This document shows, in pieces, positions 29,370-49,861 of a DNA stretch of 64,000 nt. Below the pieces are notes generated by a model. The model was not told the DNA's origin, did no database searches, and saw nothing but the letters and a program-made list of their open reading frames with translations. A program made the position numbers and the translations under genes. How positions within the stretch are numbered: position 1 is the first letter of the stretch; the number at the start of each line of letters is the position of its first letter. Source of the DNA: Ancylobacter lacus (GTDB lineage Bacteria; Pseudomonadota; Alphaproteobacteria; Rhizobiales; Xanthobacteraceae); assembly GCF_018390635.1 (NCBI RefSeq), contig NZ_JAHBGE010000057.1, forward strand, positions 62,001 through 126,000, read 5' to 3'.

Positions 29370-30686
29370 TCAGTGGCCGCCGGCCGCGACGGGCGACAGC
29401 GTGATGCCGTTGGCCTTGGCCCATTCCGCATTGCGGGCATGGTGCTTGATCAGCATGGGGCGCAGGACGAACAGCGCCGCGAACGCCGCCGACAGGTCCA
29501 TGATGGCCACGGTGTAGAGCACCGAGGACCAGGTGCCGGTCGCTTCCATCAGGATGTTGCCGAACGGCACGAGCAGGGCGGCCACACCCTTGGCGCAGTA
29601 GAGGACGCCGTAGATCTTGGCGACGTTCTTGGTGCCGAAGGTGTCAGCCGTCGTGGCCGAGAACAGCGAGTAGACCTCGCCCCAGGCCAGGAACACCATG
29701 CCGGAGAGGATGAGGAACGCCCACGGATTGTGACCGAAGGTGCCGAGCGCGACGATGCCGAGGCCTTCGATGGTGAAGGCGATGAACATGGTCTTCTCGC
29801 GGCCGATATGGTCGGAGATCCAGCCGAACAGCGGACGGGAGATGCCGTTCATGATGCGGTCGAGCATGAGGGCGAAGGGCAGCGCGGCCATCACGGTGAA
29901 GCCGAGATTGACCTGGAAGTCCTTCACGCCGAGGTCCTGGGCGATGACGCCGAGCTGGGCAACGGCCATCAGACCGCCGGTGACGGTGCCGATGAACATG
30001 GCGCCCATGACCCAGAACACCGGAGAGCGCAGCGCCTCGGGCAGGGTGTAGTCGCGGCGGGACTGGGCGACCTTGTTGGAGCCCTTGGCGTCCTTCGGCG
30101 GCTGCCGCAGGAACAGCGCGGCCAGCACGATGATGCCGCCCTGGATGAGGCCGAAGGTCCAGAAGGTTTCCGACACGCCGCTGGTCTTCAGCATGTTGGC
30201 GATCGGCAGGATGGTGAGGGCCGAGCCGGCGCCGTAGCCGCCAGCGGTCAGGCCGACCGCGAGGCCGCGCTTGTCCGGGAACCATTTGATCGCGGCGTTG
30301 ACGCAGGTGGCGTAGACGCAGCCGACGCCGATGCCGCCGATGACGGCGCCCACGTAATAGAGAGTGAGCGTGTCGGCGTAGGAGTTCACGATCCACGACA
30401 GGCCGGTGAACACGCCGCCGACCAGCACCATGACGCGCGGGCCGTATTTGTCGATGAAATAGCCCTCGATCGGCGCCAGCCAGGTCTGGACCACGACGAA
30501 GATGGTGAAGGTGGTCTGGATGGCCGCGCGCGACCAGCCGAACTCACGGGTGATTTCCGGGACGAACAGGGTCCAGGCGTACTGGATGTTGGCGGCGGCG
30601 ACCATGCAGACGACGCCGACGACCAGCTGAACCCAGCGGATCGAATTCGTCGACGCATCGACGGATGCAGTGCTCGAAGTGCTCAA
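29370..30686 (-). CDS. oxlT: Oxalate:formate antiporter, MFS (OxlT family), copy 1
   Basis: A 438-residue, 12-helix MFS carrier exchanging oxalate for formate, the entry point of the oxalate pathway. Arg277 (DRIMNGISRP) and Lys366 (LYCAKGVAAL) sit where O. formigenes OxlT has its substrate-binding Arg272 and Lys355. The MFS loop DKYGPRVMVLVGG is present near residue 79. The start codon is TTG at 30686 with GAGAGGAG eight bases upstream. No ATG occurs for the first 27 residues, so the TTG is probably real and may limit expression. It is a paralog of the neighbouring antiporter, not identical to it. Confidence 0.88.
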   Translation of the reverse strand: MSTSSTASVDASTNSIRWVQLVVGVVCMVAAANIQYAWTLFVPEITREFGWSRAAIQTTFTIFVVVQTWLAPIEGYFIDKYGPRVMVLVGGVFTGLSWIVNSYADTLTLYYVGAVIGGIGVGCVYATCVNAAIKWFPDKRGLAVGLTAGGYGAGSALTILPIANMLKTSGVSETFWTFGLIQGGIIVLAALFLRQPPKDAKGSNKVAQSRRDYTLPEALRSPVFWVMGAMFIGTVTGGLMAVAQLGVIAQDLGVKDFQVNLGFTVMAALPFALMLDRIMNGISRPLFGWISDHIGREKTMFIAFTIEGLGIVALGTFGHNPWAFLILSGMVFLAWGEVYSLFSATTADTFGTKNVAKIYGVLYCAKGVAALLVPFGNILMEATGTWSSVLYTVAIMDLSAAFAALFVLRPMLIKHHARNAEWAKANGITLSPVAAGGH

Positions 30687-31230
30687 GGGCGTTCTCCTCT
30701 CTCAACTCTCTCGCCGCGGATCGGCGCTGTGCGGCTGCGGCCTCCGGTTGACCGGAAACCTGCCGTCTCTTGTCTTTGGCCGACGGGACTTCCCAGCCGG
30801 CGAATGTCGTTGCAGCTCCCGAGTGCGTGGGTTGCCGCCCTGCCTTTGGGGATGCCGTAAGGTGCATTCCCGCATGACGCAGGGTAGTCGTACCCGACCC
30901 GCTTAAAATGATCATAATGCACAATATTATGTATGCCAATCGGCTTTTATAGCGTTGTCACACCTAATGACTTCGTGATTTTAGACAAATAGATTTTAGA
31001 ATTACTTATATCCGTGCGAGATTTTAAATAAACTTGGGAATATATACCAAACGTATTTATTGGACGCCCTCAAGACCACAACGGACATCGCTCCCAGTTG
31101 AGCCCGCCGAACACGCCAGGGAAAACCGGACATCCTGGTGGGCACGCCACCAGCATGACGCAGCGTAACGTTTGACGCCTGCGGAAATACGCAGGCGTTC
31201 ACCAGCCTCGGCCGCGAGCAACAGGCGCGC
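30687..31230. other. AT-rich intergenic region upstream of oxlT-1
   Basis: Bases 30905-31065 are markedly AT-rich for this genome and hold the oxlT-1 promoter and operator (30911-30940). A further half-site ATATACCAAACG lies near 31041-31052. The 5' leader of oxlT-1 would be about 215 bases. I see no ORF with coding character. Confidence 0.5.
30911..30940 (-). promoter_or_regulatory. oxlT-1 promoter overlapping a GTATGCCA operator
   Basis: On the minus strand TTGGCA (30939-30934) and TATGAT (30916-30911) are separated by 17 bases, each five of six to the sigma-70 consensus. The -35 lies inside TTATGTATGCCAAT (30927-30940), one of the recurring oxalate-island motifs. That predicts a regulator competing with RNA polymerase at the -35. 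Confidence 0.6.
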
Positions 31231-31263
31231 AAAACAAAAAGGGCGCGTCCGGCGGACGCGCCC
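31231..31263 (-). terminator. Intrinsic terminator of oxlT-2
   Basis: Stem GGGCGCGTCC/GGACGCGCCC with a three-base loop (31241-31263). Read on the minus strand it is followed by TTTTTGTTTT, about 30 bases after the oxlT-2 stop. Confidence 0.88.
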
Positions 31264-31292
31264 CATAGGCCAGGAGGAGACGGAACGTTCGA

Positions 31293-47651: not shown

Positions 47652-47765
47652 CGCCAGCGCCGGCCGCCGGGCTAAAAGGGGCGGCGCGCTGAATGGAACA
47701 TGGTGCGTCGCGCGGCGCGGGACTTGCTTGTCCTCGCGGTCGCCGGCGTCGGAGGAGCGGGTTGA

Positions 47766-48965
47766 ATGAATATCCATGAATACCAGGCCAAGGGAGTGCT
47801 CCGCGAGTTCGGGGTTCCCGTGCCGAACGGCGTCGCCGTTCTGACCGCCGACGAGGCGGAAGCCGCCGCGGCCAAGATTCCCGGCCCGGTATGGGTCGTG
47901 AAAAGCCAGATCCACGCCGGCGGGCGCGGCAAGGGCAAGTTCAAGGAAGCCGAAGCGGGCGAGAAGGGCGGCGTGCGCGTCGTCAAGTCCGCCGCCGACG
48001 CGGCCGAGAACGCCAAGCTCATCCTCGGCAAGACGCTGGTGACCATCCAGACCGGCCCGGCCGGCAAGCAGGTCAACCGCGTCTATATCGAGGAAGGCTC
48101 GGAGATCGAGAAGGAGTTCTACCTCTCCGCGCTGGTCGACCGCGCCACCTCGCGTGTCGCCTTCGTCGTCTCGACGGAAGGCGGCATGGACATCGAGGAA
48201 GTCGCGCACTCCACGCCCGAGAAGATCCACACCTTCGCCGTCGACCCGGCGACCGGGGTGATGCCCCATCACGGCCGCACCGTCGCCGAGGCGCTGGGCC
48301 TCTCCGGCGACCTCGCCAAGCAGGCCGGCTCGCTGGTCGCCAAGCTCTACGCCGCCTTCACCGCGAAGGACATGGCGATGCTGGAGATCAACCCGCTGGT
48401 GGTGACCAAGGGCGGCGAGCTGAAGTGCCTCGACGCGAAGATCTCCTTCGATTCCAACTCGCTCTACCGCCACCCCGAGATCCTCGCCCTGCGCGACGAG
48501 ACCGAGGAAGACGAGAAGGAGATCGAGGCGTCGAAGTACGACCTCGCCTATATCGCGCTTGACGGCACCATCGGCTGCATGGTCAACGGCGCCGGCCTCG
48601 CCATGGCGACGCTCGACATCATCAAGCTCTACGGCGAATCCCCCGCCAACTTCCTCGACGTCGGCGGCGGCGCCACCGAGGAGAAGGTGACGGCGGCCTT
48701 CAAGATCATCACCGCGGACCCGCAGGTGAAGGGCATCCTCGTCAACATCTTCGGCGGCATCATGAAGTGCGACGTCATCGCGCGCGGCGTGCTCGCCGCG
48801 GTGAAGGCGGTCGGGCTGCAGGTTCCGCTGGTGGTGCGCCTCGAGGGCACCAATGTCGAGGAAGGCAAGAAGATCATCCGCGAGAGCGGACTGAACGTCA
48901 TTCCGGCGGACGATCTCGACGACGCCGCGCAGAAGATCGTCAAGGCCGTGAAGGAGGGCGTGTGA
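47766..48965 (+). CDS. sucC: Succinyl-CoA synthetase beta subunit (ADP-forming)
   Basis: A 399-residue ATP-grasp subunit. [33 protein letters not shown] near residue 45, MLEINPLVV near 205 and [18 protein letters not shown] near 328 match alphaproteobacterial SucC rather than malate thiokinase MtkA, which lacks the GGIMKCDV form. It forms succinyl-CoA with SucD. Here it lies at the end of the oxalate island rather than next to mdh and sucAB, so it may be a second copy supplying succinyl-CoA as a CoA donor for oxalate. That role is inferred. Confidence 0.9.
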
Positions 48966-49861
48966 TGTCGGTTCTGATCAATAAAGGCACCCGGATCATC
49001 ACCCAGGGTTTCACCGGCAAGAACGGCACCTTCCACTCCGAGCAGGCGATCGCCTATGGCTCGAACGTGGTCGGCGGCACCTCGCCCGGCAAGGGCGGCT
49101 CGACCCATCTCGGCCTTCCGGTGTTCGACACCGTGGCGGAAGCCCGGGAGAAGACCGGCGCCGACGCCTCGGTGATCTATGTTCCGCCGCCGGGCGCGGC
49201 CGACGCCATCTGCGAGGCGATCGCCGCCGAGATTCCGCTCATCGTCTGCATCACCGAGGGCATTCCGGTGCTCGACATGGTGAAGGTGAAGCGCGCCCTG
49301 GACGGCTCCAAGTCGCGTCTGGTCGGGCCGAACTGCCCCGGCATCGTCACCGCCGGCGAGTCGAAGATCGGCATCATGCCGACCAACATTTTCAGCCGCG
49401 GCTCGGTGGGCGTGGTGTCGCGCTCGGGCACCCTCACCTATGAGGCGGTGTTCCAGACCACCCAGGAAGGCCTCGGCCAGACCACCGCGGTCGGCATCGG
49501 CGGCGATCCGGTGAAGGGCACCGAGTTCATCGACGTGCTGGAGATGTTCCTGGCGGACGACGCCACCGAGTCGATCGTGATGATCGGCGAGATCGGCGGC
49601 TCGGCCGAGGAAGATGCCGCGCAGTTCCTGCTCGACGAGGCCAAGCGCGGCCGCAAGAAGCCCACCGTCGGCTTCATCGCCGGCCGCACCGCGCCTCCCG
49701 GCCGCCGCATGGGCCATGCCGGCGCCATCATCTCCGGGGGCAAGGGCGGCGCCGAGGACAAGATCGAGGCGATGCGCGCTGCCGGCATCTCGGTCTCGCC
49801 CTCCCCGGCCCGCCTCGGCAAGACCCTGATCGAGCTGCTGCAGGGCAAGGCCGCGGCCTGA
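48965..49861 (+). CDS. sucD: Succinyl-CoA synthetase alpha subunit
   Basis: A 298-residue CoA-binding subunit. CoA site [15 protein letters not shown] near residue 18, [19 protein letters not shown] near 122 and the phosphorylated His in [14 protein letters not shown] near 248. The ATG shares a base with the sucC TGA (TGATG), giving stoichiometric coupling. The sequence resembles alphaproteobacterial SucD along its length. A strong intrinsic terminator follows. Confidence 0.92.

Follow-up and report, generated by a model that had tools for sequence, protein, structure and literature searches.

Why should a bacterium keep its only recognisable succinyl-CoA synthetase inside a cluster of genes for oxalate catabolism? 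The question is raised by a 64,000-nucleotide stretch of the Ancylobacter lacus genome (contig C54, positions 62001-126000, of a 4.63-Mb genome in 90 contigs), referred to below as the window. Within it an oxalate island, which begins with two oxalate/formate antiporter genes, ends with sucC (47766..48965, plus strand) and sucD (48965..49861, plus strand), encoding the beta and alpha subunits of succinate-CoA ligase. An earlier note on this DNA had read the island as a complete oxalotrophy module; its span ends on the last base of sucD, and it passed over sucC-sucD itself, along with a second formyl-CoA transferase gene (frc2), an FAH-family gene and a gene for a 42-residue (42-aa) protein. 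The placement of SucCD arose perhaps because carbon assimilation from oxalate drains activated coenzyme A (CoA) that SucCD replaces. In the reading that we favour, to which we give roughly even chances, GntR regulators control the island as an oxalotrophy module, and SucCD recharges CoA for the branch that runs through a putative oxalyl-CoA reductase (PanE2), by way of formyl-CoA:oxalate CoA-transferase (Frc).

The only canonical sucCD lies within the oxalate island

A SucC search of the A. lacus genome at 1e-10 returned a single match, the island sucC. Both subunits scored above their NCBIfam cut-offs (SucC, NF001913, 578.9 bits, cut-off 370; SucD, NF004230, 450 bits, cut-off 336), and a malate-CoA ligase (MtkAB) identity was rejected because model NF010647 gave 487.7 bits, below its cut-off of 604. 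Exactly one canonical sucC (90–100% identity) was found in 30/30 genus genomes, two of which also hold a remote SucC homologue of 35–37% identity. It is unusual for the sole canonical copy of a gene of the tricarboxylic acid (TCA) cycle to reside in a catabolic island, as it does in all 30 genus genomes searched.

The rest of the TCA operon is elsewhere: in the genus genomes sucA lies on a different contig from the island sucCD, or hundreds of kb away. In A. lacus sucA begins ~250 bp after mdh without sucCD between them, and in 20/20 sampled congeners mdh likewise adjoins sucA (gap at most ~1.3 kb) with no intervening sucCD match. The arrangement resembles the mdh-sucCD-sucAB operon of relatives in keeping the order mdh, sucA, sucB, lpd (sucB and lpd named from sequence by eye), but differs in that sucCD has moved to the oxalate island and an operator-like site stands before mdh. 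No other canonical SucCD was found in Ancylobacter, because the operon mdh-sucA-sucB-lpd no longer holds one. Two genomes of other families, G211 and G285, also have mdh-sucA without sucCD, their only canonical sucCD lying beside panE2 (G211) or frc (G285).

A SucC tree was built from 48 of 70 rows, omitting six Ancylobacter near-copies and retaining just three rows of less than 50% identity. With each SucC labelled as housekeeping or oxalate-linked by our own context rule, the starred branches require the label to change five times or more. A starred branch separates G285 from Ancylobacter; G211 shares an unresolved fork with Ancylobacter.

Within the island, panE2 (45889..46866, plus strand) and the FAH-family gene (46878..47651, plus strand) directly precede sucC. 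The spacers are 11 bp between panE2 and FAH and 114 bp between FAH and sucC, and sucC and sucD overlap by one base. A consensus scan of positions 45400-50300 found no terminator-like site on the plus strand from panE2 to sucC and one weak site within sucD, and a strong terminator-like hairpin follows sucD (49886..49917, plus strand). The lack of a site between panE2 and sucC, together with this hairpin, makes it likely that panE2-FAH-sucC-sucD forms one transcript.

A GntR-type operator in and beyond the island

Several island genes are preceded by a GntR-type operator, for which the consensus TGGYATNNNRTATRCCA was used in genus counts. In the 4.63-Mb genome the pattern GGTATNNNGTATGCCA is matched exactly at two places, each within the island: one upstream of gntR2, preceding gntR2-oxc (34097..34113, plus strand, TGGTATTTGGTATGCCA), and one upstream of panE2 (45820..45836, minus strand, TGGTATTTTGTATGCCA). 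At up to two mismatches GGTATNNNGTATGCCA matched 28 times in the whole genome, compared with nine times for the reversed control, and TGGTATNNNGTATGCCA at up to three mismatches gave seven matches in the window, compared with a shuffle mean of 1.0. The gntR2 operator is exact in 17/17 genus loci and the panE2 operator in 21/21, the window included in both cases. The panE2 operator is also present in some other genera, and the assignment of PanE2 to the oxalate regulon in the earlier note is supported by it. The accompanying claim that panE2 shares this motif with the oxlT genes fared less well, since the oxlT sites are the weakest: that upstream of oxlT1 (30922..30938, plus strand, CAATATTATGTATGCCA) has three mismatches and the half-conserved site between oxlT2 and gntR1 (32726..32742, plus strand, CAAAATTTTGTATGCCA) has four. 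Across the genus, oxlT1 upstream regions showed three mismatches in 12/15 cases and five in the remaining three, and oxlT2 upstream regions came within two mismatches in 4/17; shuffled upstream regions did so at two mismatches in 0–3%. The adjacent gntR genes suggest that the neighbouring GntR regulators bind the operator.

An operator of the oxalate type also stands ~150 bp upstream of mdh (G000:C3:26115-26131; L003 1500-1516). Among 21 genus genomes this site was exact in two and had one mismatch in 11, two in seven and three in one (20/21 at two or fewer), and it is conserved within a variable promoter, with a mean column identity of 0.85 versus 0.47 in its flanks. In mdh promoters of other genera, a site with at most one mismatch was found in 0/16 genomes and one with two mismatches in a single genome (24 rows, 8 of them duplicates).

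The exact pattern was found in 11 of 12 chosen genomes, at 34 distinct sites, and the reversed control gave none. Most of these sites (29/34) are no more than ~11 kb from oxc or panE2, or immediately precede sucC, a divergent ligase or the 42-aa gene; five lie elsewhere. In G253, assembled as a single contig of 7.0 Mb, sites were located 75 bp before sucC, ~0.6 kb before panE2 and, as a pair, ~0.9 kb before oxc. A third exact operator match in the A. lacus genome, on contig C73, was set aside; it lies inside an open reading frame (ORF) of 341 residues and is probably due to chance.

At sucC itself, 9/9 other genomes in the window's family that have Oxc (oxalyl-CoA decarboxylase) carry the exact operator ~73–80 bp before their single sucC, which is mdh-linked in the three checked. 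The exact operator was present in 4/18 housekeeping sucC rows, three of them from the window's family (G253, G143 and G236) and the fourth from G304 (Bradyrhizobium sp. BRP22). Genome G236 has an exact operator between mdh and sucC, and its sucD lies ~5 kb from sucA, the genes in between being rhodanese-like and dehydrogenase-like by eye (L265, G236:C7:252000-263000). In 40 further canonical sucC upstream regions, the operator occurred at up to one mismatch in 5/13 single-copy and 1/27 multi-copy genomes, and in no shuffles. All five single-copy genomes with the operator belong to the window's family. The trait is thus lineage-bound, and the proposal of a sucC operator in all single-copy Oxc genomes was rejected, as 5/13 have one.

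Succinate-CoA ligases near oxalate genes in other genomes

A survey of the order covered 297 genomes, of which 62 had Oxc at E ≤ 1e-180 and 61 of these 62 a SucC-family match at 1e-50. Of the 134 SucC-family copies, 34 were within 20 kb of oxc or of one of the best 51 PanE2 rows, versus a rough expectation of 2.4; these came from 27 of the 62 Oxc genomes. Linked copies were of the canonical type in eight genomes, divergent (32–42% identity) in 23 and intermediate (48%) in two, with the first two kinds occurring together in six, and in several lineages sucC directly adjoins frc. SucC was coupled to oxalate genes in 39/62 once the 27 are joined by G285 and G267, where the evidence is split between contigs or comes from SucD only, and by ten genomes in which an exact operator precedes sucC. 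Coupling was more frequent among Oxc genomes with a PanE2 of at least 58% identity (28/34 versus 11/28 without; Fisher p 0.0006), as was 20-kb linkage alone (20/34 versus 7/28, p 0.010), and use of every PanE2 match at 1e-60 gave 32/42 versus 7/20 for coupling (p 0.004) and 23/42 versus 4/20 for linkage alone (p 0.014); these p-values are indicative only, because the genomes are related and PanE2 also served as an anchor.

The surroundings of PanE2 were also compared. Among 59 loci from outside the genus (at least 12 kb long; PanE2 identity 70–79%), oxc or frc was present in 43, a gntR relative in 36, FAH in 34, oxlT in 33, sucC in 11 and gcl in six. A further 37 loci from the order, mostly more distant (53–80%), had sucC in 19 and FAH in 12. 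PanE2 proteins 94–96% identical to that of the window were found in 12/80 loci, from Ancylobacter species and a few records that bear other names or are assigned to Xanthobacteraceae.

Beside panE2 or frc, several genera (L059, L074, L067, L055 and others) carry a divergent SucCD-like ligase. In 18/18 members, row L201 (31%) being omitted, its loop reads NFMDIRTTA or NFMDVRTTA, as opposed to NFLDVGGGA in canonical SucC, with R300 and T301 (window SucC numbering) invariant; we take this loop position to be near the acid site. Two members scored 398 and 376.2 bits on the succinate-CoA ligase model (cut-off 370) and fell far below the malate-CoA ligase cut-off. The operator precedes these RTT-loop ligases at up to one mismatch in 17/18 rows. 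Across ten distinct linked rows (from Afipia, Bradyrhizobium, Cupriavidus and a Hyphomicrobiales; L190 repeats L146 and was counted once), nine had one mismatch and L165 had two. From its neighbours and its loop, the RTT-loop ligase is a candidate ADP-forming oxalate-CoA ligase, with oxalate as the presumed substrate, and would be a new enzyme.

A proposed role for SucCD in oxalate assimilation

In the scheme that we favour, OxlT would import oxalate and Frc would form oxalyl-CoA. Oxc would decarboxylate some of this to formyl-CoA, which Frc would recycle, so that CoA is conserved in the energy branch, and PanE2 would reduce the remaining oxalyl-CoA to glyoxylate and free CoA. Gcl, Hyi and GlxR would then convert glyoxylate to glycerate in the assimilation branch. 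Each assimilated oxalate would thereby cost the Frc/Oxc cycle one CoA ester, and since PanE2 would free the CoA, ATP would have to be spent on a new ester. SucCD could repay it by making succinyl-CoA from succinate, CoA and ATP, after which Frc, a transferase, would use succinyl-CoA and oxalate to give oxalyl-CoA and succinate.

Some of these steps have precedents. The PanE2-like protein presumably acts on oxalyl-CoA, and the PanE2 of Methylobacterium extorquens has been used in vitro to reduce oxalyl-CoA (PMC8411744). Succinyl-CoA:oxalate CoA transfer was measured in extracts of Pseudomonas fluorescens (PMC2752808), and growth on oxalate is reported for Starkeya novella, now Ancylobacter novellus (PMC3570799). 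The scheme usually drawn in the accounts cited here joins a closed formyl-CoA cycle to the reduction of oxalyl-CoA for carbon and leaves open what pays for the released CoA. Linkage, operator and recurrent recruitment suggest that succinyl-CoA synthetase, or an enzyme related to it, pays; this energetic step may have been overlooked.

Several observations weigh against this role. No close operator stands directly at the genus sucC, and in other genera ten of the canonical sucC rows linked to oxalate genes (L049, L067, L068, L074, L181, L187, L203, L206, L263 and L268) have at least three mismatches. The operator is missing at mdh in G211 and G285, on which ground a constant pairing of sucCD loss from mdh-sucA with an mdh operator was rejected. 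It is missing at sucC in 8/13 newly tested single-copy Oxc genomes (all eight also without PanE2 at 1e-60), and the operator-bearing G171, G216 and G236 lack PanE2 at the same threshold, with G194 having only a 38% one. Six of the 34 genomes with PanE2 at 58% or more show no SucC coupling. Among the 37 further order loci, oxc or frc was found in eight, so either the loci are split or the PanE2 family extends beyond oxalate genes.

The transferases also count against succinyl-CoA as the donor. Frc1 and Frc2 have YfdW as their nearest solved structure; Trp48 of Oxalobacter formigenes FRC is not present in either, both having Gln, as does Escherichia coli YfdW (for Frc2 by reading), and both are without the O. 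formigenes FRC insertion (for Frc2 judged by length). Position 48 is presumably relevant to succinyl-CoA use by Frc, and YfdW represents the type with the greater specificity for formyl-CoA. In the assays described for YfdE and UctC, which belong to a different subfamily, succinyl-CoA and oxalate did not react (PMC3720670).

A broader claim is possible, if somewhat doubtful: that ligases of the succinyl-CoA synthetase (SCS) type, all ADP-forming, are a core CoA-recharging step of oxalate assimilation that has so far gone unnamed, recruited several times and often under one GntR operator. The Ancylobacter regulon would then have captured the sole SucCD and brought mdh-sucAB under the same kind of operator, the RTT-loop pair of other genera would be a new ADP-forming oxalate-CoA ligase, and a 42-residue membrane protein would belong to the regulon. 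If this is true, the TCA cycle is wired to oxalate, as the regulon would hold the sole SucCD and an operator at mdh-sucAB.

Alternative explanations

The alternative that survives best, though we judge it unlikely, is that SucCD merely supplies biosynthesis. During growth on oxalate, energy would come from formate and 2-oxoglutarate dehydrogenase might be low, so that SucCD would run in the ATP-using direction solely to provide biosynthetic succinyl-CoA, and transfer to the regulon would uncouple it from sucAB. The canonical sequence of SucCD, the separation of the genus sucCD from sucAB, and the position of the relatives' operator between mdh and sucC, or before sucC, are all as such a role would predict. 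It leaves unexplained why sucC directly adjoins frc and why genomes with a retained canonical sucC also carry the divergent ligase next to panE2; moreover, the genus operator also stands before mdh-sucAB, a poor fit with separate switching of sucAB.

It is rather improbable that SucCD itself joins CoA to oxalate, as an ADP-forming oxalate-CoA ligase that feeds PanE2 without Frc. Such an activity would suit the position of SucCD within the panE2 gene run, and the divergent family beside panE2 or frc, with NFMDIRTTA in place of NFLDVGGGA and R300 and T301 in 18/18, would be a parallel. However, the loop of the window SucC is the canonical NFLDVGGGA, and diagnostic residues for oxalate-linked canonical SucC were rejected, as no position separates linked from housekeeping copies at the 80% level. 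The TCA cycle, too, has to be served by the island SucCD, the only canonical copy. In addition, deletion of frc-oxc in Cupriavidus necator is reported to abolish growth on oxalate, although the energy supply was lost too (PMC7486775).

We regard it as more improbable still that a rearrangement placed sucCD beside panE2 by chance and that SucCD has no part in oxalate metabolism. With no operator directly at the genus sucC, and with a 114-bp spacer after FAH that makes a private sucC promoter possible, the gene could be a mere hitch-hiker. Against this stand the 34 linked copies where 2.4 were roughly expected, the changes of label (at least five) forced on the SucC tree and the exact operator before sucC in all nine Oxc-positive relatives of the family.

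A reading in which the island has the energy branch only, with the PanE2-like protein being just a normal ketopantoate reductase, is very improbable: the closest NCBIfam and PDB names of this protein are indeed ketopantoate (2-dehydropantoate) reductase, and 29/37 of the further order loci show no oxc or frc, but its operator is conserved in every genus locus (21/21), panE2 is linked to oxc or frc in the window, in 16/16 full genus islands and in 43/59 non-genus loci, the C. necator homologue adjoining frc-oxc has genetic support (PMC7486775), and M. extorquens PanE2 has served for in vitro reduction of oxalyl-CoA (PMC8411744).

Gene content of the island

The island opens with two minus-strand genes, oxlT1 (29370..30686; TIGR04259, 603.7 bits, cut-off 335) and oxlT2 (31293..32588; TIGR04259, 683.9 bits, cut-off 335), for oxalate/formate antiporters. 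Six plus-strand genes follow: gntR1 (33114..33869, start uncertain) and gntR2 (34160..34885, GTG start inferred), each encoding a GntR/FCD regulator (PF00392, PF07729); oxc (35093..36835; TIGR03254, 1023.4 bits, cut-off 739.4); frc1 (37118..38395; TIGR03253, 724.3 bits, cut-off 504.2); a gene for a single-domain PAS protein of 142 aa (38689..39117; PF00989); and frc2 (39235..40485; TIGR03253, 730.7 bits, cut-off 504.2). An IclR-family regulator gene (40577..41398; PF01614, PF09339) lies on the minus strand. The right part is entirely on the plus strand and comprises gcl, for glyoxylate carboligase (41844..43610; TIGR01504, 1175.1 bits, cut-off 711.2), hyi, for hydroxypyruvate isomerase (43718..44497; TIGR03234, 397.9 bits, cut-off 353.45), and glxR, for tartronate semialdehyde reductase (44542..45429; TIGR01505, 411.2 bits, cut-off 340.75), followed by panE2, FAH, sucC and sucD. 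The PanE2-like protein scored 520.7 bits on NF005089 (cut-off 223) and matched PF02558 and PF08546; the FAH protein matched PF01557 (2.1e-54), and its solved relatives include acylpyruvases and decarboxylases.

Both branches described in the earlier note, the energy branch of two OxlT, Oxc and Frc and the assimilation branch of PanE2-like protein, Gcl, Hyi and GlxR, were found where it had placed them, with every member above its NCBIfam cut-off. Its call for a comparison of gene order in related genomes was answered with 20 congeneric island stretches, 16 of which span the island; the order gntR1-gntR2-oxc-frc1-frc2-iclR-gcl-hyi-glxR-panE2-FAH-sucC-sucD was identical in 16/16. Gene content, this conserved order and C. 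necator genetics (PMC7486775) together uphold a two-branch oxalotrophy module. The other four stretches (L239, L241, L249 and L253) stop at a contig end within glxR or shortly after it, ~450–900 bp before panE2 begins, which hints that the glxR region is repeated.

Two other claims needed revision. Of the four local regulators proposed, the two GntR/FCD proteins and the IclR protein stand; the PAS protein matched PAS models only, with no Pfam output domain, and its gene was detected by tblastn in 6/16 full islands. The IclR-family protein scored 304.3 bits on the BhcR model NF045644, below the cut-off of 350. The description of the island as complete and self-contained is not upheld, because no glycerate kinase or formate dehydrogenase was present among the 46 window ORFs scanned, the rest of the genome not having been searched for these, and sucCD had been overlooked. 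A PfkB-family kinase is encoded at 25061-26032 in the window.

A conserved small gene downstream of sucD

An unannotated gene on the minus strand, convergent to sucD (49986..50114), encodes a 42-aa protein with a single hydrophobic stretch. It was found at the same place in 12/12 other genus loci that reach past sucD, with 43–64% identity and a length of 42–43 residues. An operator stands 72–79 bp before its ATG with at most one mismatch in 13/13 genomes including A. lacus (17 rows with duplicates); in the window it occupies 50173..50189 on the minus strand (AGGTATATCGTATACCA). Nine aligned copies differed 394, 296 and 687 times at codon positions 1, 2 and 3, respectively, and all had the same stop. 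Position and operator suggest a role in oxalate transport or in tuning a membrane enzyme, and the product is a candidate new small membrane protein.

Comparison with known oxalate systems

In M. extorquens AM1, PanE2 reportedly acts as an oxalyl-CoA reductase, an oxalyl-CoA synthetase also being named, and the glyoxylate is said to enter a variant of the serine cycle (work of Schneider et al. in 2012). The Ancylobacter island has Gcl, Hyi and GlxR instead. A two-branch oxalate pathway is established in print, through C. necator (PMC7486775) and M. extorquens PanE2 (PMC8411744); the island is therefore of a known kind, and its apparently new part is the capture of succinyl-CoA synthetase. No report of sucCD within an oxalate regulon was found among titles and the beginnings of abstracts, in a coverage that left out most subscription journals.

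One close likeness is to frc-oxc, apbA2 and gcl-hyi-tsr of C. necator, where Oxc and Frc provide energy, the PanE2 homologue ApbA2 takes oxalyl-CoA to glyoxylate and the glycerate pathway provides carbon (PMC7486775). Mutants were tested in that species: deletion of apbA2 lengthened the doubling time on oxalate from 6.5 to 10 h and deletion of the glycerate-pathway enzymes gave 13 h, in addition to the loss of growth without frc-oxc noted above. The main text of that report does not contain the term 'succinyl-CoA', whereas Ancylobacter has a single island that includes the only canonical sucCD found.

Two further systems resemble the proposed recharging step. E. coli YfdE and Acetobacter UctC also prime oxalyl-CoA formation from a CoA ester other than formyl-CoA, but do so with acetyl-CoA and a dedicated transferase, succinyl-CoA not being a donor in the reactions described (PMC3720670). 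P. fluorescens combines an acylating glyoxylate dehydrogenase (AGODH), a succinyl-CoA/oxalate CoA-transferase (OCT) and SCS, as reported under aluminium stress (PMC2752808). That route runs towards oxalate and yields ATP, whereas the one proposed for Ancylobacter would run towards glyoxylate and consume it.

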